A DNA stretch of 64,000 bases from Liolophura sinensis (taxonomy: Eukaryota > Mollusca > Polyplacophora > Chitonida > Chitonidae), in assembly GCF_032854445.1 (NCBI RefSeq), contig NC_088304.1, positions 4,218,001 through 4,282,000 on the forward strand, in the 5' to 3' direction. The position numbers and the translations under genes were made by a program. Positions 4,098 through 55,047 of this stretch are shown in pieces (within the stretch, counting starts at the first letter, position 1; every line of letters begins with the position of its first letter). The notes beneath the pieces are model-generated. The model did no database searches and had not been told where the DNA came from. It saw only the letters and a program-made list of their open reading frames with translations.

Positions 4098-5386
4098 CGA
4101 CCGAAGATGATAGTGTTTTCGTGGAGACATTTTGTGCACACCCATATGATGCTTTGTGTGTACTTGTGTTTTCACAATGTGAAAGGGATGTCTGTATGAC
4201 CCAAAACATCCTTTTCTTTGTGCAGTGAGTATGAGAGAGTCAAGTTGCAACATTACATCATCAGGGTGATATTCCTTTTGTCAGGACGTCATGACCAGTA
4301 TATGAAATAATGAAATTATCCAAAAACACAACTTTAATATCCTGATTTTAATTTCTTTGCTGAAAGTCGTGTAAAATGTATATTTCAGGAAATAAGTTAT
4401 CACTTTTGGATCAAATTAATTATAGTATATACCTGTCTATGTTGAATTCCAGTGATTGAATAAGATGACGATGTCATGAGCCACAGCATTGTAATGTGGC
4501 AACTCGAGAAACTTTTAGCACCAAAATTATGTTATTAACCAATTGTTAATAACACAACAGTTTTTGATCTCAGATTTCTGTGTTCTTTAGCAAAACAAAG
4601 TAGTGTGTCACTCTAATTCTACCATTGAAAATAACAGTGAACACTTTCAGCACATACCACTTACATGTACAGTTTGTAGAGTGCGTGAGCTGTGATACAT
4701 CAACAGTTGCTTCCCTTTGTGTAAACATTCACTCATTCCAGTACCTATCTTAATACTTTATATTGTGACAGGAAACAATAGTTCTTCTATATTTTCTGTT
4801 TTCCTCATGTCATTTATTGGTATTAAAATTAGGTATTGGGGTGAAAGGAAATTTACGTGCACAAGTGCATGTACTCTGATGGGTACAGGTATAATGCAAT
4901 ATTGTGGTTACCTATTGTGATGAGCGTTTTTGTGAACAATAGCCTATACATGTAAGTAACAGTGCCAAGACAAGCCATGCCCTGTAGTTAACTGTTCAGG
5001 GAATACATGTATCTCTTAAAGAGCTTTGAACGCTATTTTGAGCAGTAATACCTTGTTCACACGGCCATGCTTTGGTTTAACCTGCGAAAATGGCTTTGAG
5101 CCAGTTTGATGTTGCCCAGGTGAAGAAAAAAGTGGGGTCATTTAATCCGATTTATTTGCCCAAGCTAGCGACGTCGGTTTAAGCCAGTTTCAGGGCTTGA
5201 GCGGGGTCCAGTGCCTTTCATTGTTGTAAATATCCAGAATATTCACAAAATTTCGTAATACATCAGTGTTCCAATCAAAGGCATTTTGTGTTGGTCAGTT
5301 AGTACTCTTCCAAAAACTCAGATGATATTTTACCTTTAGGCATCAAATATTTTCATGGTTTTGCTGGTTATTTTTGCTAGGAGCCT
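4098..5386 (+). other. Presumed UBE3B 3' UTR and downstream DNA
   Basis: Follows the stop codon. No second gene is seen, the reading frames are short and the sequence is AT-rich. I did not find a convincing polyadenylation signal with a downstream element, so the end of the transcript is unknown. Confidence 0.45.
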
Positions 5387-7187: not shown

Positions 7188-10100
7188 TAATGTGAAAGGT
7201 GTGAGTTTGCAACTCCTGTACAGGTGAATCAAACATTAGCTCTACCGATTCACTTGGGACTACTAGTGTAAAAGCAAACGGACAAAGTGGTGAATTTAAC
7301 TGAGCTGGCTGAGATGTGAAAGGTGTGAGTTTGCAACTCCTGTACAGGTGAATCAAACGTTAGCTCTACCGATTCACTTGGGACTACTAGTGTAAAAGCA
7401 AACAGACAAATTGGTGAATTTAACTGAGCCGGCTGAGATGTGAAAGGTGTGAGTTTGCAACTCCTGTATAGGCGAATCAAACATTAGCTCTACCGATTCA
7501 CTTGGGACTACTAGTGTAAAAGCAAACAGACAAATTGGTGAATTTAACTGGGCTGGCTGAGATGTGAAAGGTATGAGTTTGCAACTCCTGTATAGGCGAA
7601 TCAAACATTAGCTCTACCGATTCACTTGGGACTACTAATGTAAAAGCAAACAGACAAATTGGTGAATTTAACTGAGGCCGCTGAGATGTGAAAGGTATGA
7701 GTTTGCAACTCCTGTATAGGCGAATCAAACATTAGCTCTACCGATTCACTTGGGACTACTAGTGTAAAAGCAAACAGACAAATTGGTGAATTTAACTGAG
7801 CTGGCTGAGATGTGAAAGGTGTGAGTTTGCAACTCCTGGATAGGCAAATCAAACATTAGCTCTACTGATTCACTTGGGACTACTAGTGTAAAAGCAAACA
7901 GACAAATTGGTGAATTTAACTGAGGCGGCTGAGATGTGAAAGGTGTGAGTTTACAACTCCTGTATAGGCGAATCAAACATTAGCTCTACCGATTCACTTG
8001 GGACTACTAGTGTAAAAGCAAACAGACAAATTGGTGAATTTAACTGAGGCGGCTGAGATGTGAAAGGTGTGAGTTTGCAACTCCTGGATAGGCAAATCAA
8101 ACATTAGCTTTACCGATTCACTTGGCACTACTAGTGTAAAAGCAAACAGACAAATTGGTGAATTTAACTGAGCCGGCTGAGATGTGAAAGGTATGAGTTT
8201 GCAACTCCTGTATAGGCGAATCAAACATTAGCTCTACCGATTCACTTGGCACTACTAGTGTAAAAGCAAACAGACAAATTGGTGAATTTAACTGAGCCGG
8301 CTGAGATGTGAAAGGTGTGAGTTTGCAACTCCTGTGTAGGCGAATCAAACATTAGCTCTACCGATTCACTTGGCACTACTAGTGTAAAAGCAAACAGACA
8401 AATTGGTGAATTTAACTGAGCCGGCTGAGATGTGAAAGGTGTGAGTTTGCAACTCCTGTATAGGCAAATCAAACATTAGCTCTACCGATTCACTTGGGAC
8501 TACTAGCATAAAAGCAAACAGACAAATTGGTGAATTTAACTGAGCTGGCTGAGATGTGAAAGGTACGAGTTTACAACTCCTGTATAGGCGAATCAAACAT
8601 TAGCTCTACCGATTCACTTGGGACTACTAGTGTAAAAGCAAACAGACAAATTGGTGAATTTAACTGAGCTGGCTGAGATGTGAAAGGTGTGAGTTTGCAA
8701 CTCCTGGATAGGCAAATCAAACATTAGCTCTACCGATTCACTTGGGACTACTAGTGTAAAAGCAAACAGACAAATTGGTGAAATTAACTGAGCTGGCTGA
8801 GATGTAAAAGGTATGAGTTTGCAACTCCTGGATAGGCGAATCAAACATTAGCTCTACCGATTCACTTGGGACTACTAGTGTAAAAGCAAACAGACAAATT
8901 GGTGAATTTAACTGAGCTGGCTGAGATGTGAAAGGTATGAGTTTGCAACTCCTGTATAGGCAAATCAAACATTAGCTCTACTGATTCACTTGGGACTACT
9001 AGTGTAAAAGCAAACAGACAAATTGGTGAATTTAACTGGGCTGGCTGAGATGTGAAAGGTATGAGTTTGCAACTCCTGGATAGGCAAATCAAACATTAGC
9101 TTTACCGATTCACTTGGCACTACTAGTGTAAAAGCAAACAGACAAATTGGTGAATTTAACTGAGCCGGCTGAGATGTGAAAGGTATGAGTTTGCAACTCC
9201 TGTATAGGCGAATCAAACATTAGCTCTACCGATTCACTTGGCACTACTAGTGTAAAAGCAAACAGACAAATTGGTGAATTTAACTGAGCCGGCTGAGATG
9301 TGAAAGGTGTGAGTTTGCAACTCCTGTATAGGCAAATCAAACATTAGCTCTACCGATTCACTTGGGACTACTAGCATAAAAGCAAACAGACAAATTGGTG
9401 AATTTAACTGAGCTGGCTGAGATGTGAAAGGTACGAGTTTACAACTCCTGTATAGGCGAATCAAACATTAGCTCTACCGATTCACTTGGGACTACTAGTG
9501 TAAAAGCAAACAGACAAATTGGTGAATTTAACTGAGCTGGCTGAGATGTGAAAGGTGTGAGTTTGCAACTCCTGGATAGGCAAATCAAACATTAGCTCTA
9601 CCGATTCACTTGGGACTACTAGTGTAAAAGCAAACAGACAAATTGGTGAAATTAACTGAGCTGGCTGAGATGTAAAAGGTATGAGTTTGCAACTCCTGGA
9701 TAGGCGAATCAAACATTAGCTCTACCGATTCACTTGGGACTACTAGTGTAAAAGCAAACAGACAAATTGGTGAATTTAACTGAGCTGGCTGAGATGTGAA
9801 AGGTATGAGTTTGCAACTCCTGTATAGGCAAATCAAACATTAGCTCTACTGATTCACTTGGGACTACTAGTGTAAAAGCAAACAGACAAATTGGTGAATT
9901 TAACTGGGCTGGCTGAGATGTGAAAGGTATGAGTTTGCAACTCCTGTATAGGCGAATCAAACATTAGCTCTACCGATTCACTTGGGACTACTAGTGTAAA
10001 AGCAAACAGACAAATTGGTGAATTTAACTGAGCTGGCTGAGATGTAAAAGGTATGAGTTTGCAACTCCTGTACAGGTGAATCAAACATTAGCTCTACCGA

Positions 10101-12468
10101 TTCACTTGGGACTACCAGTGTAAAAGCAAACAGACAAATTGGTGAATTTAACTGAGCTGGCTGAGATGTGAAAGGTGTGAGTTTGCAACTCCTGTATAGG
10201 CGAATCAAACATTAGCTCTACCGATTCACTTGGGACTACTAGTGTAAAAGCAAACAGACAAATTGGTGAATTTAACTGAGCTGGCTGAGATGTAAAAGGT
10301 ATGAGTTTGCAACTCCTGGATAGGCGAATCAAACATTAGCTCTACCAATTCACTTGGGACTACTAGTGTAAAAGCAAACAGACAAATTGGTGAATTTAAC
10401 TGAGCTGGCTGAGATGTGAAAGGTATGAGTTTGCAACTCCTGTATAGGTGAATCAAACATTTTTACCGATTCACTTGGGACTACTAGTGTAAAAGCAAAC
10501 AGACAAATTGGTGAATTTAACTGAGCTGGCTGAGATGTGAAAGGTGTGAGTTTGCAACTCTTGTATAGGCGAATCAAACATTAGCTCTACCAATTCACTT
10601 GGCACTACTAGTGTAAAAGCAAACAGACAAATTGGTGAATTTAACTGAGCTGGCTGAGATGTGAAAGGTATGAGTTTGCAACTCCTGTATAGGTGAATCA
10701 AACATTAGCTCTACCGATTCACTTGGGACTACTAGTGTAAAAGCAAACAGACAAATTGGTGAATTTAACTGGGCTGGCTGAGATGTGAAAGGTATGAGTT
10801 TGCAACTCCTGTACAGGCGAATCAAACATTAGCTCTACCGATTCACTTGGGACTACTAGTGTAAAAGCAAACAGACAAATTGGTGAATTTAACTGAGCTG
10901 GCTGTGATGTGAAAGGTATGAGTTTGCAACTCCTGTATAGGCAAATCAAACATTAGCTCTACCGATTCACTTGGGACTACTAGTGTAAAAGCAAACAGAC
11001 AAATTGGTGAATTTAACTGGGCTGGCTGAGATGTGAAAGGTATGAGTTTGCAACTCCTGTATAGGCCGAATCAAACATTAGCTCTACCGATTCACTTGGG
11101 ACTACCAGTGTAAAAGCAAACAGACAAATTGGTGAATTTAACTGGGCTGGCTGAGATGTGAAAGGTATGAGTTTGCAACTCCTGTATAGGCGAATCAAAA
11201 CATTAGCTCTACCGATTCACTTGGGACTACTAGTGTAAATGCAAACAGACAAATTGGTGAATTTAACTGGGCTGGCTGAGATGTGAAAGGTATGAGTTTG
11301 CAACTCCTGTATAGGTGAATCAAACATTAGCTCTACCAATTCACTTGGCACTACTAGTGTAAAAGCAAACAGACAAATTGGTGAATTTAACTGAGCTGGC
11401 TGAGATGTGAAAGGTGTGAGTTTGCAACTCCTGTACAGGTGAATCAAACATTAGCTCTACCGATTCACTTGGGACTACCAGTGTAAAAGTAAACAGACAA
11501 ATTGGTGAATTTAACTGAGCTGGCTGAGATGTGAAAGGTGTGAGTTTGCAACTCCTGTATAGGCGAATCAAACATTAGCTTCTACCGATTCACTTGGGAC
11601 TACTAGTGTAAAAGCAAACAGACAAATTGGTGAATTTAACTGAGCTGGCTGAGATGTAAAAGGTATGAGTTTGCAACTCCTGGATAGGTGAATCAAACAT
11701 TAACTCTACCGATTCACTTGGGACTACTAGTGTAAAAGCAAACAGACAAATTGGTGAAATTAACTGAGCTGGCTGAGATGTGAAAGGTATGAGTTTGCAA
11801 CTCCTGTATAGGTGAATCAAACATTTTTACCGATTCACTTGGGACTACTAGTGTAAAAGCAAACAGACAAATTGGTGAATTTAACTGAGCTGGCTGAGAT
11901 GTGAAAGGTATGAGTTTGCAACTCCTGTATAGGTGAATCAAACATTAGCTCTACCAATTCACTTGGCACTACTAGTGTAAAAGCAAACAGACAAATTGGT
12001 GAATTTAACTGAGCTGGCTGAGATGTGAAAGGTGTGAGTTTGCAACTCTTGTATAGGCGAATCAAACATTAGCTCTACCAATTCACTTGGCACTACTAGT
12101 GTAAAAGCAAACAGACAAATTGGTGAATTTAACTGAGCCGGCTGAGATGTGAAAGGTATGAGTTTGGAACTCCTGTGTAGGCGAATCAAACATTAGCTCT
12201 ACCGATTCACTTGGGACTACTAGCGTAAAAGCAAACCGGCAAATTGGTGAATTTAACTGAGCTGGCTGAGATGTGAAAGGTATGAGTTTGCAACTCCTGT
12301 ATAGGCGAATCAAACATTAGCTCTACCGATTCACTTGGGACTACTAGTGTAAAAGCAAACAGACAAATTTGTAGAATTTAACTGAGCTGGCTGAGATGTA
12401 CTGATTCACTTGGGACTACTAGTGTAAAAGCAGACAGACAAATTGGTGAATTTAACTGAGCCGGCTCC
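7188..12468 (+). repeat. 124-bp satellite array, about 42 units
   Basis: A head-to-tail array of units with period 124 bp. Constant words are CGATTCACTTGGGACTACTA, GCAAACAGACAAATTGGTGA, GCTGGCTGAGATGTGAAAGG and GAGTTTGCAACTCCTG. Units differ by a few substitutions (TGTATAGG or TGGATAGG, GGGACT or GGCACT). The last units are degenerate, one with a deletion of roughly half a unit near 12400. Each unit has a short inverted repeat, GTGAATC then 16 bases then GATTCAC, in its less altered forms. The overlapping 76-codon minus-strand frames seen in nearly every unit follow from the repetition and are not genes. Confidence 0.98.
8349..9960 (+). repeat. 868-bp (7-unit) higher-order duplication within the satellite
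   Basis: Units carrying diagnostic variants recur 868 bp apart: TAGCATAAAAGC with GGTACGAG at about 8505 and 9373, GGTGAAATTAACTG at about 8777 and 9645, and CTACTGATTC at about 8976 and 9844. The seven-unit block therefore appears twice, almost identical, next to each other. This points to a recent unequal exchange. Confidence 0.9.
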
Positions 12469-40142: not shown

Positions 40143-43100
40143 CTGAAAGCAAAGTGAATGTGTTATGCTAAGCTTATCACTAGGATGTTTTCACATGGGG
40201 CAACATACTTTTATCTGCAATGCAAATTTACATTGCTATGGTTGGAAATGTTCAGAGTTTAAAGAAAGTTTGAACTATACTTATTATAAGCTACATATAA
40301 CTAAGATTTTCACATCCCCTTCATTTATTAATTTATTCATTCATCTACATACTCAAAATATGCATGTGGAGGTATGTAGCAAACCTGCGGACGGTCGTGT
40401 ATTTCCCCCCGCCTCTGCCCGGTTTCCTCCCATCACAACACTGGCCACTGTTGTATACGTGAAATAGGCTGGAGTACAGCGTTAAAACCAATCAAATAAA
40501 TAAATAAATCAAAAATTACTCGTGTATATGATGGTGGTCAGTGGGATGCATGGTGAACCTGAGTTAAACCACTGACCTACGGCAAGCTGCTGAGTAACTC
40601 TCCCACATACATGATGGTGCACAGACCAGGACATAAACATAAACTAGAACAGACTTGAGAAAAGTGAAGCCTTGGTGACACGCTTAAACAAGTGAATGAT
40701 CACTTATTGGCATCGAGGCCCCATAAACGCTAAGAAATTCCTCGTTCACAGCTGGTATTGAACCCGGGGCCACCCTAGCCAACTAAAAAACAAGTGGCTT
40801 GTTAACTGACTTGGCCACAATCCTCTCCCCACATCCCTTTTCTTCCCCACACTGTACAGCTAAGGTTATCTGGATCACCCAGCCAGTTAACAGACAGGTA
40901 AGCTTTCTCTGTAACACAAAAGAGCTGGCTACCTCTCCAGGCGTGCACGGAAGGTCTGCCATCAACCTGCGGATGGTCGTGGGCTTCCCCCAGTTTCCTC
41001 CCACCACAATGCTGACCATTCTCGTACAAGTGAAATATTCTTGAGTATGGCACAAAAACTCAATAAAATAAATAAATATATAAATATAAAGCACAAGAGG
41101 CCTGCTGTACATTACCTGTAGGTATTTCTTCCCCCTCAGACTCATCAGCCGCTTGTCCTGTAGGATCATGACGTTGTCGGCTTCCTGCGTGGCCTTGGCG
41201 CTACCGTATATGGATGCTGTCGTCAGCTCATCATTATCCTTTTCCTGAAGAGTCAAAAAACCTTTGAAGATTTTTATGACAAAGTTTGTGCAGTAGGAAA
41301 CTCATCAATATTATCTCATGTGATAATTCTGAATTGAGTCAAAATAATTACACGCTACCATTACAGTTACAGATAATAACATAGATACTGATATTATTTC
41401 CAATACAAAAACAAAAACACATCTTGAGATCTGCAGTTTTATTTTTTTTTTATACATATTCAATTTTATGGAAAGTTTTTACTTCTGTACAATTCAGTAC
41501 AGACATTTTAATGAAAACTGACAGCAGAAGACAAGGGATCCTCAACAACTTTATGTAAGACAACCTAATTTGCATATAAGAAAGGTGAATCAGCGTCTTG
41601 TGTATCCAAGTGACCAACTGTCAATGTTGACCAACTGTCAATGTTGACCAACTGTCATGTCAACCAACTGTCAATGTCAACCAACTGTCAATGTCGACCA
41701 ACTGTTAATGTCGACCAACTGTCAATGTTGACCAACTGTCATGTCAACCAATTGTCAATGTCAACCAACTGTCAATGTTGGAACTCTCATGACAAATTAC
41801 TTGGAAGATATTTCAGAACAGCTTTCAAAAGTAATCTAACAGTGCATTTTGACTTAAAGAGGGAGACACCCAGCACTGAAAGTGTTGTTGAATATCTTAA
41901 GTGTGCTTTTCAATTTAAAATAATACATTATTTAATTTTCAATGTAATTCCTTTTCCTGAAAGGGCTGAAAACATGTCCACAATATGAGCAGTCATCTAA
42001 TATTTCCTGGCATTTCTGCAGAAAACCAAACAATGGCTAACCTTTCTGGGATGCACCACAACGGTCACATGACAGTTCATGGTGGTGGCGAACTTTCGAA
42101 TGCAGCGACGATCTGATCTTGTCCTCTGGAACCTGTCCATCATCAATCTGTCCGACTCCACCCCCATCATGAACTGGAGGTTGTCAACAACAACGTGGGC
42201 AATGTCATGTACATAGACAGCATGGGACATCGTCTGTCAAAAAAGGCAAAAAACAGTTTTCCTAGTATGTCCTTTCAGGGCTTTTGCCAACCAATACTTT
42301 GTTACAAAAGTGTGCTTTAAACTGACAGTTGGTACCAGGCATTCCTTTTTGTATTTGAACAGGTGTGTGATTATCACATCTCTTACCACTGTGACTAAGA
42401 GTGTGATTTGCACACCTAATACTTGCAAAATTGGTGCTGTGGTCATAACGCCTTTTAAAACATAAAACCATTTTTTTTTTTTTACTGTACTGTTACATCT
42501 TGGGTTATTTCTGAATTTTACTTGTTCTTTATTGCAACCCTGACCACATAATGTATGCAAGATATATGCTGATACATAAACTGTGTATTTTTCTGGCTTT
42601 GTCCAGGCCAAGTTCAGAACACCTGAACGCCCATGACTGACCTCTATGACCTTCTTGATGCTCTCCTGCCCAAAAAAGGTCATGAAGTACATGGGAAGGT
42701 TCTCAAACTGGTCAGCCCAATGATCAAACTCTCTTAGGTTCTTGGACATGTTTTGCCTTGGTACAAGAAAGAACATTGCATGGCATTAAAACAAACTGGT
42801 TACAACAACATGAATGTAACTAATCCTGTATACCTGACACTCAAGATTTTTAGGGGAAAAACAAACATGTAACACCCTGTTGACTAAAAATCTTTAGTCT
42901 TCATAAGTCTTCATAAAAATGTTTAACAATTGTTTACTGTTTACTGTTTTACTGTAAAGATCTAAAAATATTCATTTTGAGAATTGCCAGATATTGGGTG
43001 ATATAATTTAGTACTGCATTCTGATCAATGTTGAGGAAGTTTAATTGGGATCAATCATTAGAACAGGATTCTACGATTGTTCTATCCTTCTGTGAAAAAA

Positions 43101-46100: not shown

Positions 46101-49100
46101 ATACAATATTTATCTCCTATCTTCTGCTTCGAATATCCATTAAACTTGCGGCCATGGTTTATAAGATTATTATATGATACTGTCATATACAAATCATTAC
46201 GTTTTGGATCTGGGTAACAAGACATTTTGCTCCACATTCCATTTGTGCAAGGACATTTATCTTTTATCTCTTCATTTTACAAACCTAGGGACATTATCAA
46301 CAACAACATATGTTTGAACGGTCACATGCACTACTTCACCTTGACCCCTGCGACCTGCTCCACATGGGCCAGCTCAGAATAGACTTCCTGCCTGAGTTGT
46401 GAGAAGGCTGTTATAGATTGATGAGTGACAGGGCGTGCATGCTCCAGGATGCGGTGTAGGTTACTGCCCCTCTGAAGTGCTTCCAGGGCGTTCGGGTGTT
46501 CTGAACTGGGCCTGGAAACACAAAAATATATGGCTTATTTTGTTTGCTGGTATTCTGTTTTCATGTCCTACTACAGATCTGTCTTAGTTTTTTCTCAGTT
46601 CTGGAGTTTTATGCTGAACGGTATTCAACTAAAGTTTAGCAGTTTTCAAGTGACACATTTTCCTTGGTTCTGACTTATTCTTTCACCTTAGAATGATACT
46701 TACAAGTGTATGTGGAGTCTGATCAAGAAAATTTTGAAGCTTTGGCATAAAAAGTGTCATTTTAAGGTTTCCAGTGCATCTGAGGTGCATTTTCACATAC
46801 CCAACTGGGATACAGTATTTGCTTAGTAGATGCTTAACAAACCTCCCGGCTCAAACCCTTGATGAACCTTTGAAAACTGGAATCAAGCCTGCTACCTAGT
46901 TTGCCAAACCCGAGGTGATATTGGTGGAAATGGTCTTCAACGCCCGTAAGACTTGATACCTACTTATTGTCATTAGTAGCCACAAATCTACAAATTCCCT
47001 AAGGTCAGTATTGACCCCAAACCTCCTATTTGAGTTCTTACAATGAGCACCACATGTACAGCTTATCTGAATTTACAGATTGAGGAAATCCTGCATGGTA
47101 TGGCAGAAACTACAGCAACAATCAGGATCCTGACAAATCTTCTGACGAAGGGCTGCAGCCAAGACAAAAAGAGTTCTGAATTCGTACTGGAGACCTTGTT
47201 GGTCAAAAGCCTATTGCCAGCAGCAAGAGTCAAACTTTATACAACTAAGTTCTTTTGTGAATTTGTTGTAGGGTGTGTCAAGTAAGCAGTTCATGTTTTT
47301 AAAATGACACCTGAAGAGTTTCACTGCTTACCTAATCACAAAACACCGTTTCTCGTTCAGCTTCTTGGTGAACTGCTTAGCAGCTTCCCAAGAACGGATG
47401 TCATTTTTAAACCAGAGGACGATTTTCTTAAACTGCTCCAATAATGGTAAAATCTGGAAAAAAAAAATCAATCAATACTTCCTTTGAATAATGAAGTAAA
47501 CCTTTTGATATATGTTGTCAACATTCTTTCTAGTTTATTTTTCTGATAAACTCAATGTTACATACAGGTTCAGTATAATTTTTTTTGTTACATTCATCAT
47601 GAAGTTTTTGCTTACTTTTGTTCTTTGTATTAAGGGTGCTTAATTTTCAGTTTTAAAATATATGCTTCAACTGTTTGCAAACTTTCTAAGAATAAAGATG
47701 ATTAGCTGCCTCTGAAATAGTAATGTGAGTCATTTGCACCATTTTGTACCTTCCTTGACAGGAGGGTTACAGCCATCAATACTCATATTGAGTGAGTGAG
47801 TGAGTGAGTGCCTGGGGTTTAATGTCGTGCTCAACAATTTTTCAGTCATATGACGACGAAGGAATCCTTAGGGTGTATGTAATGTACCTCCTTGTTGCAG
47901 GACGGAATGCCACCGCTCTTTTATCTAGTGCTGCTTCACTGAGACGACTTACCGAAGGCAAGTAAGCCGCCCTGCCCGAGCCATTATAGTGATGCGGGTC
48001 AACAAGTTGTTGCATTATCCCCTTCATGCTGAACGCCAAGCCAGGAAGTTACAACTTCCTCTTTTAAAGTCTTAGGTGTGACTCGACCCAGGATTGATCC
48101 TGAGATCTACCGCTCCCGAAGCGGATGCTCTACGATCTGTGCTATCCGGGACATCTATTCATATTGATACTAACCTCCTGTGGCAACACAGAGTCGCCTT
48201 TTGGAAGTGCGATGGCCGGTACTTTAGTTTCTTGATATACTGCCATGGCATCAAACTCGCTGGCCGTCAAAACAACCTCATTGGTTGATGGAGCAATCGT
48301 GTTCCAGCCAATCAGGCCGTGAACGTCACCTCTACAATTCAAAATTAGCATAAATATCAGAGAAGTCTTAAAAAAAGGAACAAAACCCTAAAAAAAGAAA
48401 AAAATCTTTTTTCTCAGGTAAATGTGAATAGAAACAATTTTCAAAATAATGAATGTAAAATAGCACCTAATTAGCTCAAATTAAAACTAACACTTTCCAT
48501 TGCCACATTGTTTTCACAAATAACTCATCCCATGGAAGAGTGAAATCCATATTAACAGATATAAACTGCCAAATAATCCATCTTATTGACCAATCAAAAT
48601 GTAAAGCTTATCAAGACAAATGGTCACAATACTTGTTTAACTTTCATTGTAACCATGAAGATGATTCTTGGCGGCCTCCGTGGCTCAGTCGGTTAGCACT
48701 CTAGCGCAGTGTATTGACCCAGAGGCCTCTCACCAATGCAGTCGCTGTGAGTTCAAGACCAGCTCATGCTGGCTTCCTCTCCAGCCGTATGTGGGAAGGT
48801 CTGACAGCAACCTGCAGATGGTTGTGGGTTTCCCCCGGGCTCTGCCCGGTTTCCACCCACCATAATGCTGGCCGCTGTCGTATAAGTGAAATATTCTTGA
48901 GTACGGCGTAAAACACCAATCAAAAAAAAAAAGAAGATTTTTTGACACACATTTGGGGTTTCAGGTTGGGGCTTTAGACTGGGACTCTACCGTTTTCATA
49001 TTACATATAACGAAGACGACCAAAGACTGTACATCTCATGTTTTTACTCCCTTTGGTGCGAAGGCAAAACGCTCATCCGTTGACATAAAGAGAACGGACG

Positions 49101-52100
49101 AGTCTATTATAACATGGGATGTTGCTTTCACTGAAAAATGAATGGATAAATATCATATGCCAGGTGTAAGGAAACAACATCTAAAGACATTGTCAATTTC
49201 ATTCCTTCCTCGGTAAAAAACTACTGTGGTGTCAGAAAGGTTAACCATACGTTATCAGTATAAGGCGAACAATTTGCAACTTTGCATTTCATCCTTAGCA
49301 AAGGCAATTATGTCACAGCAAGATTCGAACACGTACTAACCAGTGTGCTGCACATGATATGTAAACAACTCTGGCAGCAGTGGTTATTTCGCGAAGAGAA
49401 TCGTGTCATTGTCGAAAATTACAAGCAGACAGGTACCAACGAATGTTTCAAAACACATCACGCAATCTTTTCAACAGCTGTTTTTGCCATCAGTTTGATA
49501 TTCGTTCCCACTGAAATCAGTGGGTAGTTGGCTGGTACCTTTTATGCCCAGAAACAGAGGTTTTGCCTGGTCTTTGCAGGTCACCCGCTACTTAGAATAA
49601 TTTTGCCTGGATCCTCCAACGCTATACGCCGTATGGGTGGACCTTCTACCTAAAACAATAACCTCGTCCACCTTGTTGACTTAAAAACTGCTGATAGACA
49701 CCCATAGCAGGAACACTGTTCCTTAATTTACCTAACCTATTATATGGCCCTTGAACACCGGATCATTTGGCACACATTTAACTCGGTACAATCTTTTGAC
49801 AAATTTCACTGGAATTGAGTATAATATACTGTACCTCTTATGATAGGGACCATCTTTACCTGTACATGAGCCTTTAACAATTATTTACCTGGAAATGAGC
49901 CTTGGTCGATCATTTACCTGGAAATGAGCCTTGGACAATTAATTACCTGGAAATGAGCCTTGGACAATCATTTACCTGGAAATGAGCCTTGGACAATCAT
50001 TTACCTGGAAATGAGCCTTGAACAATCATTTACCTGGGAAGGAGCCTTGGACAATTAATTACCTGGAAATGAGCCTTGGGCAATTAATTACCTGGAAATG
50101 AGCCTTGGACAATCATTTACCTGGAAATGAGCCTTGGACAATCATTTACCTGGAAATGAGCCTTGGACAATTATTTACCTGGAAATGAGCCTTGGACAAT
50201 CATTTACCTGGGAAGGAGCCTTGGACAATCATTTACCTGGGAATGAGCCTTGGACAATTAATTACCTGGAAACGAGCCTTGGACAATTATTTACCTGGAA
50301 ATGAGCCTTGGACAATTAATTACCTGGAAACGAGCCTTGGACAATCATTTACCTGGAAATGAGCCTTTGACAATTATTTACCTGGAAATGAGCCTTGAAC
50401 AATTATTTACCTGGAAATGAGCCTTGGACAATCATTTACCTGGAAATGAGCTTTGAACAATCATTTACCTGGAAATGAGCCTTGGACAATCATTTACCTG
50501 GGAAGGAGCCTTGGACAATCATTTACCTGGGAATGAGCCTTGGACAATTAATTACCTGGAAACGAGCCTTGGGCAATTATTTACCTGGAAATGAGCCTTG
50601 GACAATTTTTTACCTGGAAAAAAGCCTTTGACAATTATTTACCTGGAAATGAGCCTTGGACAATCATTTACCTGGAAATGAGCCTTGGACAATCATTTAC
50701 CTGGAAATGAGCCTTGGACAATTATTTACCTGGGAATGATAGTCTCTCGAGTCCCTTTCAGTGTTCCGTCGTCAGCTGTCTTCACTGCAATCTTCTTCAC
50801 CGCATGAATTGTGTTGTCCACAAAGTACACAGGAACTAGGAATGCTTCTCGTGACTGGTCCACCCTCACACCATACGCCTTTAACACACTGGGGGACAGG
50901 CCCTGTCAAACAGGTAAAGGAGGATTCTTAGAGTAAGGAAAGTTTCGAGGTGGAATATAAAACTTCTACTACAACGTCTTACTCATACTCCTTACATATG
51001 GTGCCCTTTGCGGCCACTTTACATGACCGCCAGCACTAGAAAATTTTGTACAGAAATCTTGAACAACGCCGAGGTCAATCAAGTCATGGTGATGGGACAG
51101 GAAGTGATGTCAGAAAGCACAAATTTCTGTTTCCACCTTTGTTTGTACTACATATTCTTTATACATTCTCTTTATCTAAAGTAAGCACAACGTGATGAAA
51201 CAATTGACAAATGAAACAATTTTATTGATGAATGCTGAAGACATATGTCATATCTTTCAAGATATGCCAGAATGCACACTATTTTAAACTAAATGAACAT
51301 GGCTATTTGGATCACAATGGGACTGATTGGTGAAGCAATTGTAGGTAAAGTCTAAACAGTCCCTGGCTAAAGGATCGAAAAGGTCAACAGTGCACGAACT
51401 TTGTCTTGATTGGTCATGCTTGTGGCTTTAGTCTCGTAGCAGATTCCACAAAAACATTCCTGAAATCTCGACACAAAATGTAGTTTGTAGAACTGGTACA
51501 GGCAGCTGATGTTTTGACACGTTTGCCATAAGATAACATGTATGAGGTGGTCAACATTTTAATATCTATAGCCAAAAATAAGCTCTAAAATTGCATTTCA
51601 CAAGTTGAAAATCTTGTGGAATTGGGTAACGTCAGCTCTACGTTTCACTGTAAGACCTAATTTTTACCTTTGCCATTGTAAGTTTACCTCTACTCTGCGA
51701 ATCACAATGAAAATGCCATTGATTACTCGTCAATTAAGTACAACAACCAGTCCTAAGGTGAAGACTAAAACTGTGCTGAGCATACGTCTGCATTCTGATC
51801 TTGTGCAGACAAACAATATTTATCAACCATGTCAGAGATGGGTCATACCTGCAGAGAGCTGACATGTAATAAGTGGTCAAGATCATCTTCTGACACATCA
51901 TGCCAGGGGAGAGAACTCTCCCACAACGCTGTCATGACAGCTGAGCGAGGAGCGTTATAATTACTCTCCATCTCAGGGAAGCAGTCTTGGTCTTTTCTAG
52001 AATATAAATCATGACATTATTGTAACTTCAATTTTGGGGGAATTTTTTTCAAGAAAATTTCTCGTCTCAGACACTGACAACAATGCTTTAACTGCTTGAT

Positions 52101-55047
52101 CTCGCATGAATCCCCAAAAACAATGCTTTAACTCCTTGATCTAGCATGAATCCCCATAACAATGCTTTAAATACTTGATCCACCACGAATCCCCAAAAAC
52201 AATACTTTAACTCCTTGATCTAGCATGAATCCCCATAACAATGCTTTAAATACTTGATCCACCACGAATCCCCAAAAACAATACTTTAACTGCTTGATCT
52301 AGCATGAATCCCCATAACAATGCTTTAAATACTTGATCCACCACGAATCCCCAAAAACAATACTTTAAATACTTGATCCACCATGAATCCCCAAGAACAA
52401 TACTTTAAAAGCTTGATCCACCATGAATCCCCAAGAACAATGCTTTAACTGCTTGATCCAGCATGAATCCCCAAGAACAATGCTTTAAACACTTGATCCA
52501 CCACGAATCCCCAAAAACAATACTTTAAACGCTTGATCCAGCATGAATCCCCCAAAACAATGCTTTAACTGCTTGATCTAGCATGAATCCCCAAGAACAA
52601 TGCTTTAACTGCTTGATCCATCATGAATCCCCCAAAACAATACTTTAAATGCTTGATCTACCATGGATCCCCAAAAACAATACTTTAAATACTTGATCCA
52701 CCATGAATCCCCAAGAACAATACTATAAATACTTGATCCACCATGAATCCTCCAAAACAATACTTTAAATACTTAATCCACCATGAATCCCCCAAAACAA
52801 TACTTTAAATGCTTGATCCACCATGGATCCCCCAAAACAATACTTTAAATACTTGATCCACCATGAATCCCCAAGAACAATACTTTAAATACTTGATCCA
52901 CCATTAATCCCCCAAAACAATACTTTAAATACTTGATCCACCATGAATCCCCAAAAACAATACTTTAAATACTTGATCCACCATGAATCCCCAAGAACAA
53001 TACTTTAAATACTTGATCCACCATGAATCCCCCAAAACAATACTTTAAATACTTAATCCACCATGAATCCCCCAAAACAATACTTTAAATGCTTGATTCA
53101 CCATGGATCCTCAAAAACAATACTTTAAATGCTTGATCCATCATGAATCACCAAGAACAATGCTGTAACTGCTTGATCTAGCATGAAACCCCAAAACAAT
53201 GCTTTCACTGTTTCAACCAGCTTAAATCCCCGAAAACAATGCTTTAACTGTCTGAACCAGCCTAAATCCCCGAGAACAATGCTTTAACCGCTAGATCCCC
53301 GGGATCATGTTGGTCACGAGGAAAATGTACTTCAGGTTTTCAGCAATAGCCCTTAGACCTGTCGTAAACCTTGAACATAATAAACACGAAATACCATGCG
53401 GATGATATCAAAAAACAGATGCTCATCTATATCCAATATCACACCATATATTCACTCACTTTCTCCGAGTTCCTTTCAGTAATGAAACATTGTCTTGAAA
53501 CTGGCTCCAGGCACCAACCTTTCGACAAGCATGGCACACAAATGATCCTGTAAAAAGTGGAAGAAATATATAAACACAAGTAGCAAATATGATATGATAA
53601 ATTTTACTTTATCTTCCTAGATGATGTGCCTCAAAAATGAAAAACTCAACTCAACGAAAAAGTCCACCTGGATAACGAAATTGTCTGAGTTTCAGCCTCA
53701 CCAGTTTTCTTTTTATTGACTACATAGTTAAAAATCAATGTAATTTTTTTCTTAAAATTAAAACCCACAGTATAAGGCAGTTTTTGCAGTAAAGGTGCTC
53801 ATCAATACAACGAAACTCCGATTTACACCTTGCTTACAGTACCACGGTTAAATGCAGCTGTCAAATTTTGGGCGCCCATTTAGGAGGCTAATTCGGGCAG
53901 AAACACTTCTGCACACATGTATTAAGAAACTTGAAACTAATATCTTATATACCAAATCATAGTATCAAAATTATTATCTGATATCAGTACAAAAAACACT
54001 GCAAATTGCTCCAAACACCTAATTTGACTTCATCAGGCAATATTGCCCTTAACTTTTGCCTTTATAGGTATGCTGTAATTTGGACATCTTTAAAAGGTGC
54101 CAAAACATCCTTGCATTTGGCCCGGAGTACATACCTGTCGTCATGTTTATATATATTTTTTCTGTTTCGTCCAGCTTCGTTTTTCTCTTGTTCAGACGTG
54201 GACATGACGTTATGAAACAAGTGTGGCCGTTTTCAAACTTTAGACTTTGAGCCGTGAGGTATTTCTTAATATCTGCTGGCATTACTGTCACTGGTTCTTG
54301 CAAAACTGGAATAGATTTCCCATAATCCCTTGCTTGGAGAGTTGTCCAAGGCCGACCAATCTCATCAGCTGGTGATTTGGAAGCCGCCTGGCCAGAATTT
54401 GTCACGTTTGTTAAAGGGGGAGAACTCAGGTTTCTTTTGTTCACAGATGAATTACCTCCCTTTACTCTTCCACATTTCCCACAAGTGTTCTGTTTTGAAA
54501 ACCAAGCAATTCCACTATAAGATCTTCGAGAACTGGAAATAAAACTGTTACCCCAAAAGTCAGATGAATTCTGCAGAAATTGTTTGAAGTGTCTTGGACT
54601 TAAAATGCTACCTTCCTCACATATTGAGTTCAACAGATTCATTTTTTGCAATCGTTGGTAAGACTTGACATGGTAGGGACTCCCGGGATCTCGTGGATGT
54701 TTGCGACATCCATCCATGCTTACATCTGTACATTCTTCGGGTGACAAGGCTTCAATACAACGGTTCCCTCTCATGTGCAAAATGCTGCTATATCTCTTTG
54801 TGAAGAATGACCTGTTCTTCTGCACATTCGAAATTTTATCCACCAAACACCTCGCACCATATTGGTAACCCTTCGCAATGACTTGTCTCTCTTCCTTGTC
54901 ATTTAACACACAATGGTAGTTTTGTCCAAGACTTGTTCTTCCCTGAACAATTTTGGAAAAATTTTCACTGATAGTTCGATCTCTGAGATTCTGTTTCAGG
55001 TTGATGTTGGTGGCATTTTGTTGCCGCAGCAACTGTGCCGCCTTCAT
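39972..55047 (-). CDS. TWNK: Twinkle, mitochondrial replicative DNA helicase (complete, 13 exons)
   Basis: Exons on the minus strand: 54135-55047, 53460-53547, 51849-51996, 50730-50902, 48175-48331, 47332-47453, 46340-46511, 45285-45419, 44425-44498, 42642-42756, 42042-42233, 41116-41244 and 39972-40142. They sum to 2589 bp, 862 residues plus stop, with every phase consistent. Twinkle is the hexameric 5'-3' helicase of the mtDNA replisome. Seen: a 250-residue N-terminal part I do not recognise, a zinc-ribbon-like Cys set (C277, C282, C309 and C312), a primase-like segment (exons 3-7), then the RecA-type helicase with Walker [10 protein letters not shown] (K621), Walker B VVVDN (D716) and [11 protein letters not shown]. 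Human Twinkle is 684 residues, so this protein is longer, mainly at the N-terminus. An in-frame TAA 12 bases before the ATG supports the start. Introns hold six or more repeats and four long minisatellites. Confidence 0.95.
40365..40510 (+). repeat. Family A SINE, 5'-truncated
   Basis: ACCTGCGGACGGTCGTG, GCCCGGTTTCCTCCCATCAC and AACCAATCAAATAAATAAAT in Twinkle intron 12. Confidence 0.9.
40520..40640 (-). repeat. Family D dispersed repeat fragment
   Basis: GATGGTGGTCAGTGGGATGC, GAGTTAAACCACTGACC, GGCAAGCTGCTGAGTAAC and CTCCCACATACATGATGG follow the order of 23704-23980. Confidence 0.5.
40925..41092 (+). repeat. Family A SINE, 5'-truncated
   Basis: CACGGAAGGTCTGCCATCAA, CCTGCGGATGGTCGTGGG, CAATGCTGACCATTCTCG and CTCAATAAAATAAATAAATA. 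It ends about 25 bp from exon 12. Confidence 0.9.
41116..41244 (-). CDS. TWNK: Twinkle exon 12
   Basis: Acceptor GACTCTTCAG, donor CTACAG|GTAATG. 43 codons: [20 protein letters not shown], then [13 protein letters not shown] and [16 protein letters not shown] is the helicase motif that follows Walker B. Confidence 0.96.
41611..41781. repeat. 17-bp minisatellite in Twinkle intron 11
   Basis: About ten units of GACCAACTGTCAATGTT with small variants (GTC or ATG losses). Confidence 0.95.
42042..42233 (-). CDS. TWNK: Twinkle exon 11 (Walker B)
   Basis: Acceptor TTTTTTGACAG, donor AGAAAG|GTTAGC. 64 codons: [47 protein letters not shown] carries the Walker B Asp. Confidence 0.96.
42642..42756 (-). 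CDS. TWNK: Twinkle exon 10
   Basis: Acceptor TTTCTTGTACCAAG, donor ATAGAG|GTCAGT. Reads [20 protein letters not shown], then [18 protein letters not shown]. Confidence 0.95.
42757..43394 (-). other. Twinkle intron 9, part without tandem repeats
   Basis: AT-rich intron DNA. No recognised repeat or RNA. Confidence 0.5.
43395..44370. repeat. About 39-bp minisatellite in Twinkle intron 9
   Basis: About 25 units, 36-41 bp each, of CCAACCTGAAACCCCAAATG then CAGAGTCCCTGTCTAAAGCC. Units vary in length and sequence, so the array is old. One unit in reverse orientation is found alone at 48948-48992. Confidence 0.93.
44425..44498 (-). CDS. TWNK: Twinkle exon 9
   Basis: Acceptor TTTTGTCAAG, donor GCCCA|GTGAGT. 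74 bp: [20 protein letters not shown] and TQFA plus two bases. Confidence 0.95.
44499..45284 (-). other. Twinkle intron 8
   Basis: No recognised repeat or gene. Confidence 0.5.
45285..45419 (-). CDS. TWNK: Twinkle exon 8 (Walker A)
   Basis: Acceptor CCCTGACAG, donor CAGGGG|GTAAGT. 45 codons: [20 protein letters not shown], then [20 protein letters not shown] and [14 protein letters not shown] is the nucleotide-binding P-loop. Confidence 0.97.
45515..45662 (-). repeat. Family A SINE, diverged
   Basis: TTTATTTATTTATTTATTTG, GCCAGCATTACG, GAACCCCGGGGAAACCCAC and CATGCCTGGCTGGAGAGGAA in reverse family order. Confidence 0.85.
45911..46105 (+). repeat. Family F dispersed repeat
   Basis: TTTTTTCAAGTGACATTC, CGCCACTTCAGAGG, TTTTGTGAAGTGAATTT, ATCAGAAAAACTTACGTA and TTGGCATCAAAAGTTCATTT, as at 32566-32790. 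Confidence 0.75.
46340..46511 (-). CDS. TWNK: Twinkle exon 7
   Basis: Acceptor GTTTCCAG, donor GTCAAG|GTGAAG. Reads [20 protein letters not shown], then [20 protein letters not shown] and VEQVAGVK. It is the linker to the helicase domain. Confidence 0.95.
46600..46815 (+). repeat. Family F dispersed repeat, diverged
   Basis: TTTAGCAGTTTTCAAGTGAC, GAATGATACTTACAAGTG, GGAGTCTGATCAAGAAAATT and TTTGGCATAAAAAGTGTCAT keep the family F order. Confidence 0.65.
46816..47331 (-). other. Twinkle intron 6, part without known repeats
   Basis: A plus-strand frame of 80 codons (47043-47285) is not similar to any family I know and is taken as chance. Confidence 0.45.
47332..47453 (-). CDS. TWNK: Twinkle exon 6
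   Basis: Acceptor TTTTTCCAG, donor GATTAG|GTAAGC. Reads [20 protein letters not shown], then [20 protein letters not shown]. This is the toprim-like part of the primase-related region. Confidence 0.95.
47454..47789 (-). other. Twinkle intron 5, part without known repeats
   Basis: AT-rich, nothing recognised. Confidence 0.5.
47790..48152 (-). repeat. Family B tRNA-derived SINE, complete
   Basis: The minus strand starts CCCGGATAGCACAGATCGTA and GAGCATCCGCTTCGGGAGCG, a tRNA-like head with A-box TAGCACAGATCG and a B-box-like GGATCAATCC. The body follows and the 3' end is a (CACT)n-type tail (plus-strand TGAGTGAGTGAGTGAGTG). It lies 22 bp from the donor of Twinkle exon 5. Confidence 0.92.
48175..48331 (-). 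CDS. TWNK: Twinkle exon 5
   Basis: Acceptor TTGAATTGTAG, donor CAGGAG|GTTAGT. Reads [20 protein letters not shown], then [20 protein letters not shown] and [12 protein letters not shown], the primase-like region. Confidence 0.95.
48332..48667 (-). other. Twinkle intron 4, start of distal part
   Basis: AT-rich intron DNA without recognised features. Confidence 0.5.
48668..48932 (+). repeat. Family A tRNA-derived SINE, complete reference copy
   Basis: Starts TTGGCGGCCTCCGTGGCTCA with A-box TGGCTCAGTCGG and B-box GAGTTCAAGACC (about 48748), then GCTGGCTTCCTCTCCAGCC, GGGAAGGTCTGACAGCAACC, TTTCCCCCGGGCTCTGCCCG, GTATAAGTGAAATATTCTTG and CACCAATCAAAAAAAAAAAG. About 15 further copies or fragments of this family lie in the window. 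A tRNA head, a conserved core and an A-rich tail define a Pol III SINE. Confidence 0.95.
48948..48992 (-). repeat. Lone inverted unit of the intron 9 minisatellite
   Basis: Plus strand CATTTGGGGTTTCAGGTTGG then GGCTTTAGACTGGGACTCTA. This is the reverse complement of one unit of the array at 43395-44370. It sits right after the A-rich tail of the family A SINE. Confidence 0.85.
48993..49847 (-). other. Twinkle intron 4, middle part
   Basis: No recognised repeat or coding exon. Confidence 0.5.
49848..50735 (-). repeat. 29-bp tandem array that includes the donor of Twinkle exon 4
   Basis: About 30 units of 29 bp (plus-strand AATTATTTACCTGGAAATGA then GCCTTGGAC). On the minus strand each unit contains CCAG|GTAAATAATTG. 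The unit at the right edge is the real donor (CCCAG|GTAAAT at 50734-50724). Confidence 0.96.
50730..50902 (-). CDS. TWNK: Twinkle exon 4
   Basis: Acceptor TTTGACAG, donor TCCCAG|GTAAAT. Reads [20 protein letters not shown], then [20 protein letters not shown] and KGTRETIIP. The donor lies in the first unit of a 29-bp array. Confidence 0.95.
51045..51195 (+). repeat. Family E dispersed repeat
   Basis: GTACAGAAATCTTGAACAAC, GAGGTCAATCAAGTC, GGAAGTGATGTCAGAAAG, CCTTTGTTTGTAC and TCTTTATCTAAAGTA parallel the copy at 25262-25405. Confidence 0.65.
51196..51848 (-). other. Twinkle intron 3, part without known repeats
   Basis: No recognised feature. Confidence 0.5.
51849..51996 (-). CDS. TWNK: Twinkle exon 3
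   Basis: Acceptor TATATTCTAG, donor CTGCAG|GTATGA. Reads [20 protein letters not shown], then [20 protein letters not shown] and HVSSLQ. Confidence 0.93.
52075..53290. repeat. 40-bp minisatellite in Twinkle intron 2
   Basis: About 30 units of 40 bp: AACAATACTTTAAATACTTG then ATCCACCATGAATCCCCAAG. Period is exact in the centre (52861 and 52901); the left and right edges are more diverged. Confidence 0.96.
53460..53547 (-). CDS. TWNK: Twinkle exon 2
   Basis: Acceptor CTTTTTACAG, donor AGAAA|GTGAGT. Completes Gly305, then [20 protein letters not shown] and [13 protein letters not shown] is the second Cys pair of the zinc-ribbon-like motif. Confidence 0.93.
53548..54134 (-). other. Twinkle intron 1
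   Basis: No recognised repeat. The exon 1 frame would run on 28 codons into this intron to a stop at 54049 if unspliced, but the ACAG|GTATGT donor and the TTG-SF joint of the family favour splicing at 54135. Confidence 0.7.
54135..55047 (-). CDS. TWNK: Twinkle exon 1 (N-terminus)
   Basis: ATG at 55045-55047, donor ACGACAG|GTATGT. 304 codons. Residues 1 to about 250 are rich in Ser, Arg, Lys and Asn and match nothing I know. The start is Lys and Arg rich with few acidic residues, compatible with a mitochondrial presequence. TCGKC (C189 and C192) is an extra Cys pair. From about 253 the family part begins: [20 protein letters not shown], then [10 protein letters not shown] and KIYINMTTG. Confidence 0.92.

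Follow-up and report, generated by a model that had tools for sequence, protein, structure and literature searches.

The window analysed here, a stretch of 64,000 nt on the forward strand of a genome contig of the chiton Liolophura sinensis (RefSeq assembly GCF_032854445.1, NC_088304.1, positions 4,218,001 to 4,282,000), carries a minus-strand gene which, on homology, is Twinkle (TWNK), the gene for the mitochondrial DNA helicase. Intron 4 of this gene begins within a tandem array of 29-bp units, and a 5' splice site (donor) recurs in every one of them. The species, called Liolophura japonica in its genome paper, was renamed L. sinensis by a correction (PMC12441733). The relevant features are as follows, with a slash marking the exon-intron boundary and +1 denoting the first intronic base.

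54134, 53459 and 51848, minus strand: +1 positions of the donors of TWNK exons 1-3, read by eye.
50730..50902, minus strand: TWNK exon 4, 173 nt, ending in TIIP plus AG (phase 2); its frame is open and, joined to exon 5, aligns with 8e2l_C and 7t8b_A across the junction.
50730..50739, minus strand: the final 10 nt of exon 4, TCATTCCCAG, which agree at 10 of 10 positions with the corresponding bases of array units 8 and 18.
50721..50729, minus strand: putative authentic donor of intron 4, GTAAATAAT (unit 1); of the 31 donors, it alone leaves an open frame into exon 5; predicted U1 duplex -8.3 kcal/mol.
49847..50739, minus strand: 29-bp minisatellite of 30.8 copies in TWNK intron 4, overlapping exon 4 by 10 nt at its 5' edge, defined by TRF, the in-register donors and the table of units.
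49859..50700, minus strand: 30 further donor copies (CAG/GTAA), from unit 2 (+1 at 50700) to the partial unit 31 (+1 at 49859), established by register and the table of units; any of them brings an in-frame stop.
48332..50729, minus strand: TWNK intron 4, 2398 nt, with the array at its 5' end and without AATAAA.
48175..48331, minus strand: TWNK exon 5, placed by its Twinkle match and the junction test; acceptor TTGTAG/AGGTGAC, donor GAG/GTTAGT read by eye.

The attribution to Twinkle, made in the preliminary description, is upheld by the homology of exon 5, of the joined exons 4 and 5, and of a helicase exon to Twinkle chains. By itself, the frame of exon 5 matched 8e2l_C (E 1.5e-5, 28.6 bits) and 7t8b_A (E 1.5e-4), and the helicase exon at 42002-42236 (minus strand) matched 7t8b_A with an E-value of 7e-17; exon 4 alone gave no Twinkle match in the search, and none of five frames from this gene region, a set that did not include the helicase exons, scored above the cut-off in Pfam. 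When exons 4 and 5 were joined at unit 1—that is, at the first donor of the array—the frame was kept, the score against 8e2l_C rose from 28.6 to 41.3 bits (residues 65-172, E 1.8e-9), and the alignment with residues 188-292 of 7t8b_A (E 1.6e-7) ran through the junction, with RETIIPRGD opposite EETTIPRPS and the codon divided in phase 2 (AG/A). Homology and reading frame together support the earlier proposal that the terminal unit of the array would serve as the donor of exon 4. Between MMG and RKFAT, the helicase exon fits the Twinkle chain poorly and another frame of the DNA looks more alike by eye, possibly owing to two small changes of frame or to an error in the assembly. The translation of exon 2 (53460-53547, minus strand), together with HTCFITSC in exon 1, resembles a cysteine pattern of the primase-type zinc ribbon. 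Most of intron 2 (51997-53459) is filled by a second minisatellite (52079-53298; 40-bp unit, 30.6 copies by TRF) that leaves 82 nt to exon 3 and 161 nt to exon 2 and includes neither splice site.

The array in intron 4 spans 49847-50739 and comprises 30.8 copies with 90% matches and 0% indels (TRF), as 30 full units and a partial last unit that diverges past GTAAA; with head-to-tail units in the range of about 10-100 bp, it is a minisatellite. On its minus strand, CAG/GTAA occurs 31 times, successive sites being always exactly 29 nt apart, with the first +1 G at 50729 and the last at 49859. Since CAGGTAA occurs only seven times on the minus strand and nine times on the plus strand in the rest of the 64 kb, 31 copies in register are not a product of chance. 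The preliminary description had reported some 30 tandem donor copies in a 29-bp unit, and the count and the period are borne out; the form of the unit that it quoted, with GTAAATAATTG, is present but belongs to a minority of the full units (8 of 30), GTAAATGATTG being the commonest form (14 of 30).

Eleven of the 29 unit positions vary among the 30 full units and 18 are invariant, the latter including positions -4 to +4 around the donor, so that CAG/GTAA is retained in 30 of 30. The base at +5 is A in 24 units and T in six, and never the consensus G. If variable positions fell at random, seven given positions would all be invariant with P ~0.02, a value that ignores the kinship of the units; given this common descent, and the fact that 18 of 29 positions do not vary in any case, the constancy of the donor core hints at most mildly at a function for which the copies are retained. 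Similarity between units is maximal at lags of 8, 10 and 17 units, and the array shifted by 290 bp is 95% identical to itself, a pattern that fits block duplication by unequal exchange or slippage of blocks. A dispersed origin of the unit was rejected: in a search of the species' own genome (609,464,459 bases in 632 contigs, one haplotype), a 212-nt array query gave six matches, all within the array and from one first-look candidate, and no copy elsewhere was scored. A coding role is likewise not favored, as the 29-bp unit is not a multiple of three and the wholly internal frames of at least 50 aa reach only 50-57 aa, all on the plus strand. Just upstream of exon 4, the segment at 50967-51100 (minus strand) is a dispersed repeat with at least 40 further matches in the genome at 77-93% identity.

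The array does not stop at the splice site, but takes in the last 10 bases of exon 4, as would be expected had it arisen from a duplicated exon-intron edge, and the suggestion to that effect in the preliminary description is strengthened accordingly. Upstream of these 10 shared bases, only four of the next 19 match the unit. The C at exonic position -5 is part of a Pro codon, and T stands there in 24 of 30 units. Because the shared bases code for part of RETIIPR, which is aligned to EETTIPR of the Twinkle chain 7t8b, the array is more likely to have been copied from the exon than the exon from the array. On these sequence comparisons, the array was probably seeded by duplication of the edge between exon 4 and intron 4.

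The consequences of using each donor were assessed by building all 31 joins of exon 4 to exon 5 in silico. The first is open, and the other 30 contain an in-frame stop, because AG/GTAA reads AGG TAA directly after the exon and every longer version retains that TAA. Use of any later donor could therefore lower Twinkle output, and no other full-length protein could result from it. Neither this immediate stop, common to 30 of the 31 donors, nor the human F7 precedent considered below had been recognized in the preliminary description.

Donor strength does not single out the first unit. Predicted pairing with the 5' end of U1 amounts to -8.3 kcal/mol at 25 sites and -8.1 at six (on the same scale, CAGGUAAGUAU gives -14.0), and five other donors of the gene, the exon 2 donor and one near 42640 being left unscored, range from -5.6 to -9.7; the copies are thus about as strong as donors in use. 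As pairing is alike for all 31 units, a stronger authentic donor was rejected as the distinguishing feature. RNA structure that hides the later copies was rejected as well: the array RNA is predicted to fold less stably than shuffled sequence (z = +2.36, with 20 of 20 shuffles folding at least as well). In every unit the 9-nt donor has a low predicted probability of being unpaired (0.000 to 0.091 across the 31 units, 0.031 for unit 1), so that folding separates unit 1 from the others no better than strength does. On these predictions, it should be the position of the real donor, and not its strength, that leads to its selection. Protection from premature polyadenylation found no support either, intron 4 containing no AATAAA, ATTAAA or TATAAA and a single AGTAAA.

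An arrangement of this type has been described in intron 7 of human F7, where the first of a variable number of highly homologous 37-bp tandem repeats holds the authentic 5' splice site; the same source states that only the most upstream site is used in the normal state, citing Borensztajn 2006 (PMC6627357). In chiton Twinkle, too, the probable authentic donor is the first copy of an array of highly homologous units, each with a 5' splice site (CAG/GTAA in 31 of 31; -8.1 to -8.3 kcal/mol). The chiton case differs in its 29-bp unit, its 31 donors and its location in a mollusc gene for a mitochondrial helicase. It also differs at +5, where the presumed authentic donor has A, the base that causes deficiency when it replaces G in the first F7 repeat, as reported there (PMC6627357). 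In phenylalanine hydroxylase (PAH) intron 11, a U1 site that resembles a donor and lies downstream of the natural one acts as an intronic enhancer (PMC5933811), which offers a second parallel, although the PAH element is one site demonstrated by experiment and the chiton array consists of 30 repeats known from sequence. With ordinary intronic minisatellites the array shares head-to-tail units of 10-100 bp and signs of block duplication, but its unit holds a complete splice donor and it overlaps a coding exon. By anatomy, the chiton array belongs with F7 intron 7 as a new case of the same kind, with the first donor likewise predicted to be the one used. A literature search of limited depth retrieved no second donor-bearing array at an exon edge besides F7.

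We therefore favor a reading, held at a probability of about 0.68, in which an edge duplication was expanded, the first donor is used and the other 30 are tolerated pseudo-donors. A short tandem duplication of the last 10 nt of exon 4 and the first 19 nt of intron 4 would have started the array, and slippage or unequal exchange may then have enlarged the duplicated edge to a minisatellite of about 30 units, every unit retaining a complete and about equally strong 5' splice site. The spliceosome would most likely use the first donor, the one joined to the exon; U1 may visit the 30 downstream copies, but splicing there would be seldom, and the array would be largely tolerated rather than useful.

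Two other readings assign the extra copies a role. The copies could be landing pads for U1, such that repeat-bound U1 strengthens the recognition of exon 4 and of its own donor, which has A at +5, and the array is an intronic splicing enhancer. U1 bound downstream of a donor acts as an enhancer, and exon inclusion is promoted when U1 binds just 3' of the natural donor (PMC5933811); a potential site recurs here every 29 nt, with a core that is the same in all 30 full units. However, by duplex energy the exon 4 donor (-8.3) is not weaker than the five other donors scored in the gene (-5.6 to -9.7), and we regard an enhancer role as unlikely. Slightly less likely still is that the copies are active decoys, so that a share of transcripts is spliced downstream, gains a stop and is degraded, and array length tunes Twinkle output. 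The in-frame stop from 30 of 31 donors and the equal U1 pairing accord with this idea, as does earlier work cited in the Discussion of PMC5933811, according to which the downstream donor is preferred when two sites more than 40 nt apart are both occupied; this preference would favor decoys and count against use of the first donor. Adjacent units, however, lie 29 nt apart, under the quoted spacing, even if more distant ones exceed 40 nt, and in F7 intron 7 only the most upstream site is described as used in the normal state (PMC6627357).

For a run of 31 donors, first-site use as in F7 and the downstream preference cited in PMC5933811 make opposite predictions, and this is where the value of the locus lies. 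Equal donors at a fixed step of 29 nt in one natural gene provide a ready test of 5' splice-site choice: if the spliceosome scans from the exon, only the first unit should be used; if it prefers the downstream of two occupied sites, later units should be used; and if the array is an enhancer, exon 4 should be lost once the repeats are absent. RNA-seq of five tissues (digestive gland, foot, gill, gonad and heart), described for this species in PMC11068029, could show whether the first unit alone is used; the same paper lists an assembly of similar size for another chiton, Acanthopleura granulata.

Minisatellites are abundant in this genome, and their general content was examined in 20 sampled 10-kb stretches (10,000 of 200,000 bases being N). 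These contained 54 arrays of period at least 10, covering 10.7% of the sequence; 15 of the 54 had at least eight copies, and the consensus sequences of those 15 contained none of the six donor-like heptamers examined. The window contains 24 such arrays covering 17.2%, eight of them with at least eight copies, and one of the eight, the Twinkle array, with a donor. This abundance, and the other array in Twinkle intron 2 with its 30.6 copies of 40 bp, would suit the view that the donor core is incidental to an ordinary minisatellite whose edge met the exon by chance, but an array edge 10 nt inside the exon and in phase with the donor, and the absence of donor-like heptamers from all 15 long sampled arrays, make that very improbable.

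Across the genome, three occurrences of CAGGTAA at gaps of 10-40 nt were found at 4,539 places (2,249 + 2,290), versus 1,092 (468 + 624) for the reversed word in the same pattern; the counts are of overlapping places, which gives long arrays more weight, and reversal of the word makes for a weak control, a minisatellite core containing CAGG being known, so the comparison only hints that donor-bearing arrays are unusually common in the chiton genome. The single words are about equally common, with 47 occurrences of CAGGTAA and 40 of the reversed word in 263 kb. Units starting CAGGTAAGT were among the matches listed. Among these listed matches, which covered only the first 4.3 Mb of contig C1, 21 clusters were grouped by eye and the first site of each cluster's first row was taken: G stood at +5 in 10 of 21 clusters versus 12 of 47 background single sites (Fisher one-sided P 0.066), and GT at +5/+6 in 5 of 21 versus 3 of 47 (P 0.053), neither difference being significant. 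A broader proposal would be that minisatellites in this genome have repeatedly been seeded by splice donors, many introns beginning with runs of their own donor and 5' splice-site choice having routinely to ignore tens of equal copies. We consider this rather doubtful, since the control is weak, the places overlap, the bases at +5/+6 are not significantly donor-like and the sampled stretches held no case. If the genome-wide excess holds and sits at exons, chitons would supply many cases like the Twinkle array. Elsewhere in the window, a large array at 7190-12399 consists of 42 copies of a 124-bp unit with 95% matches (TRF).
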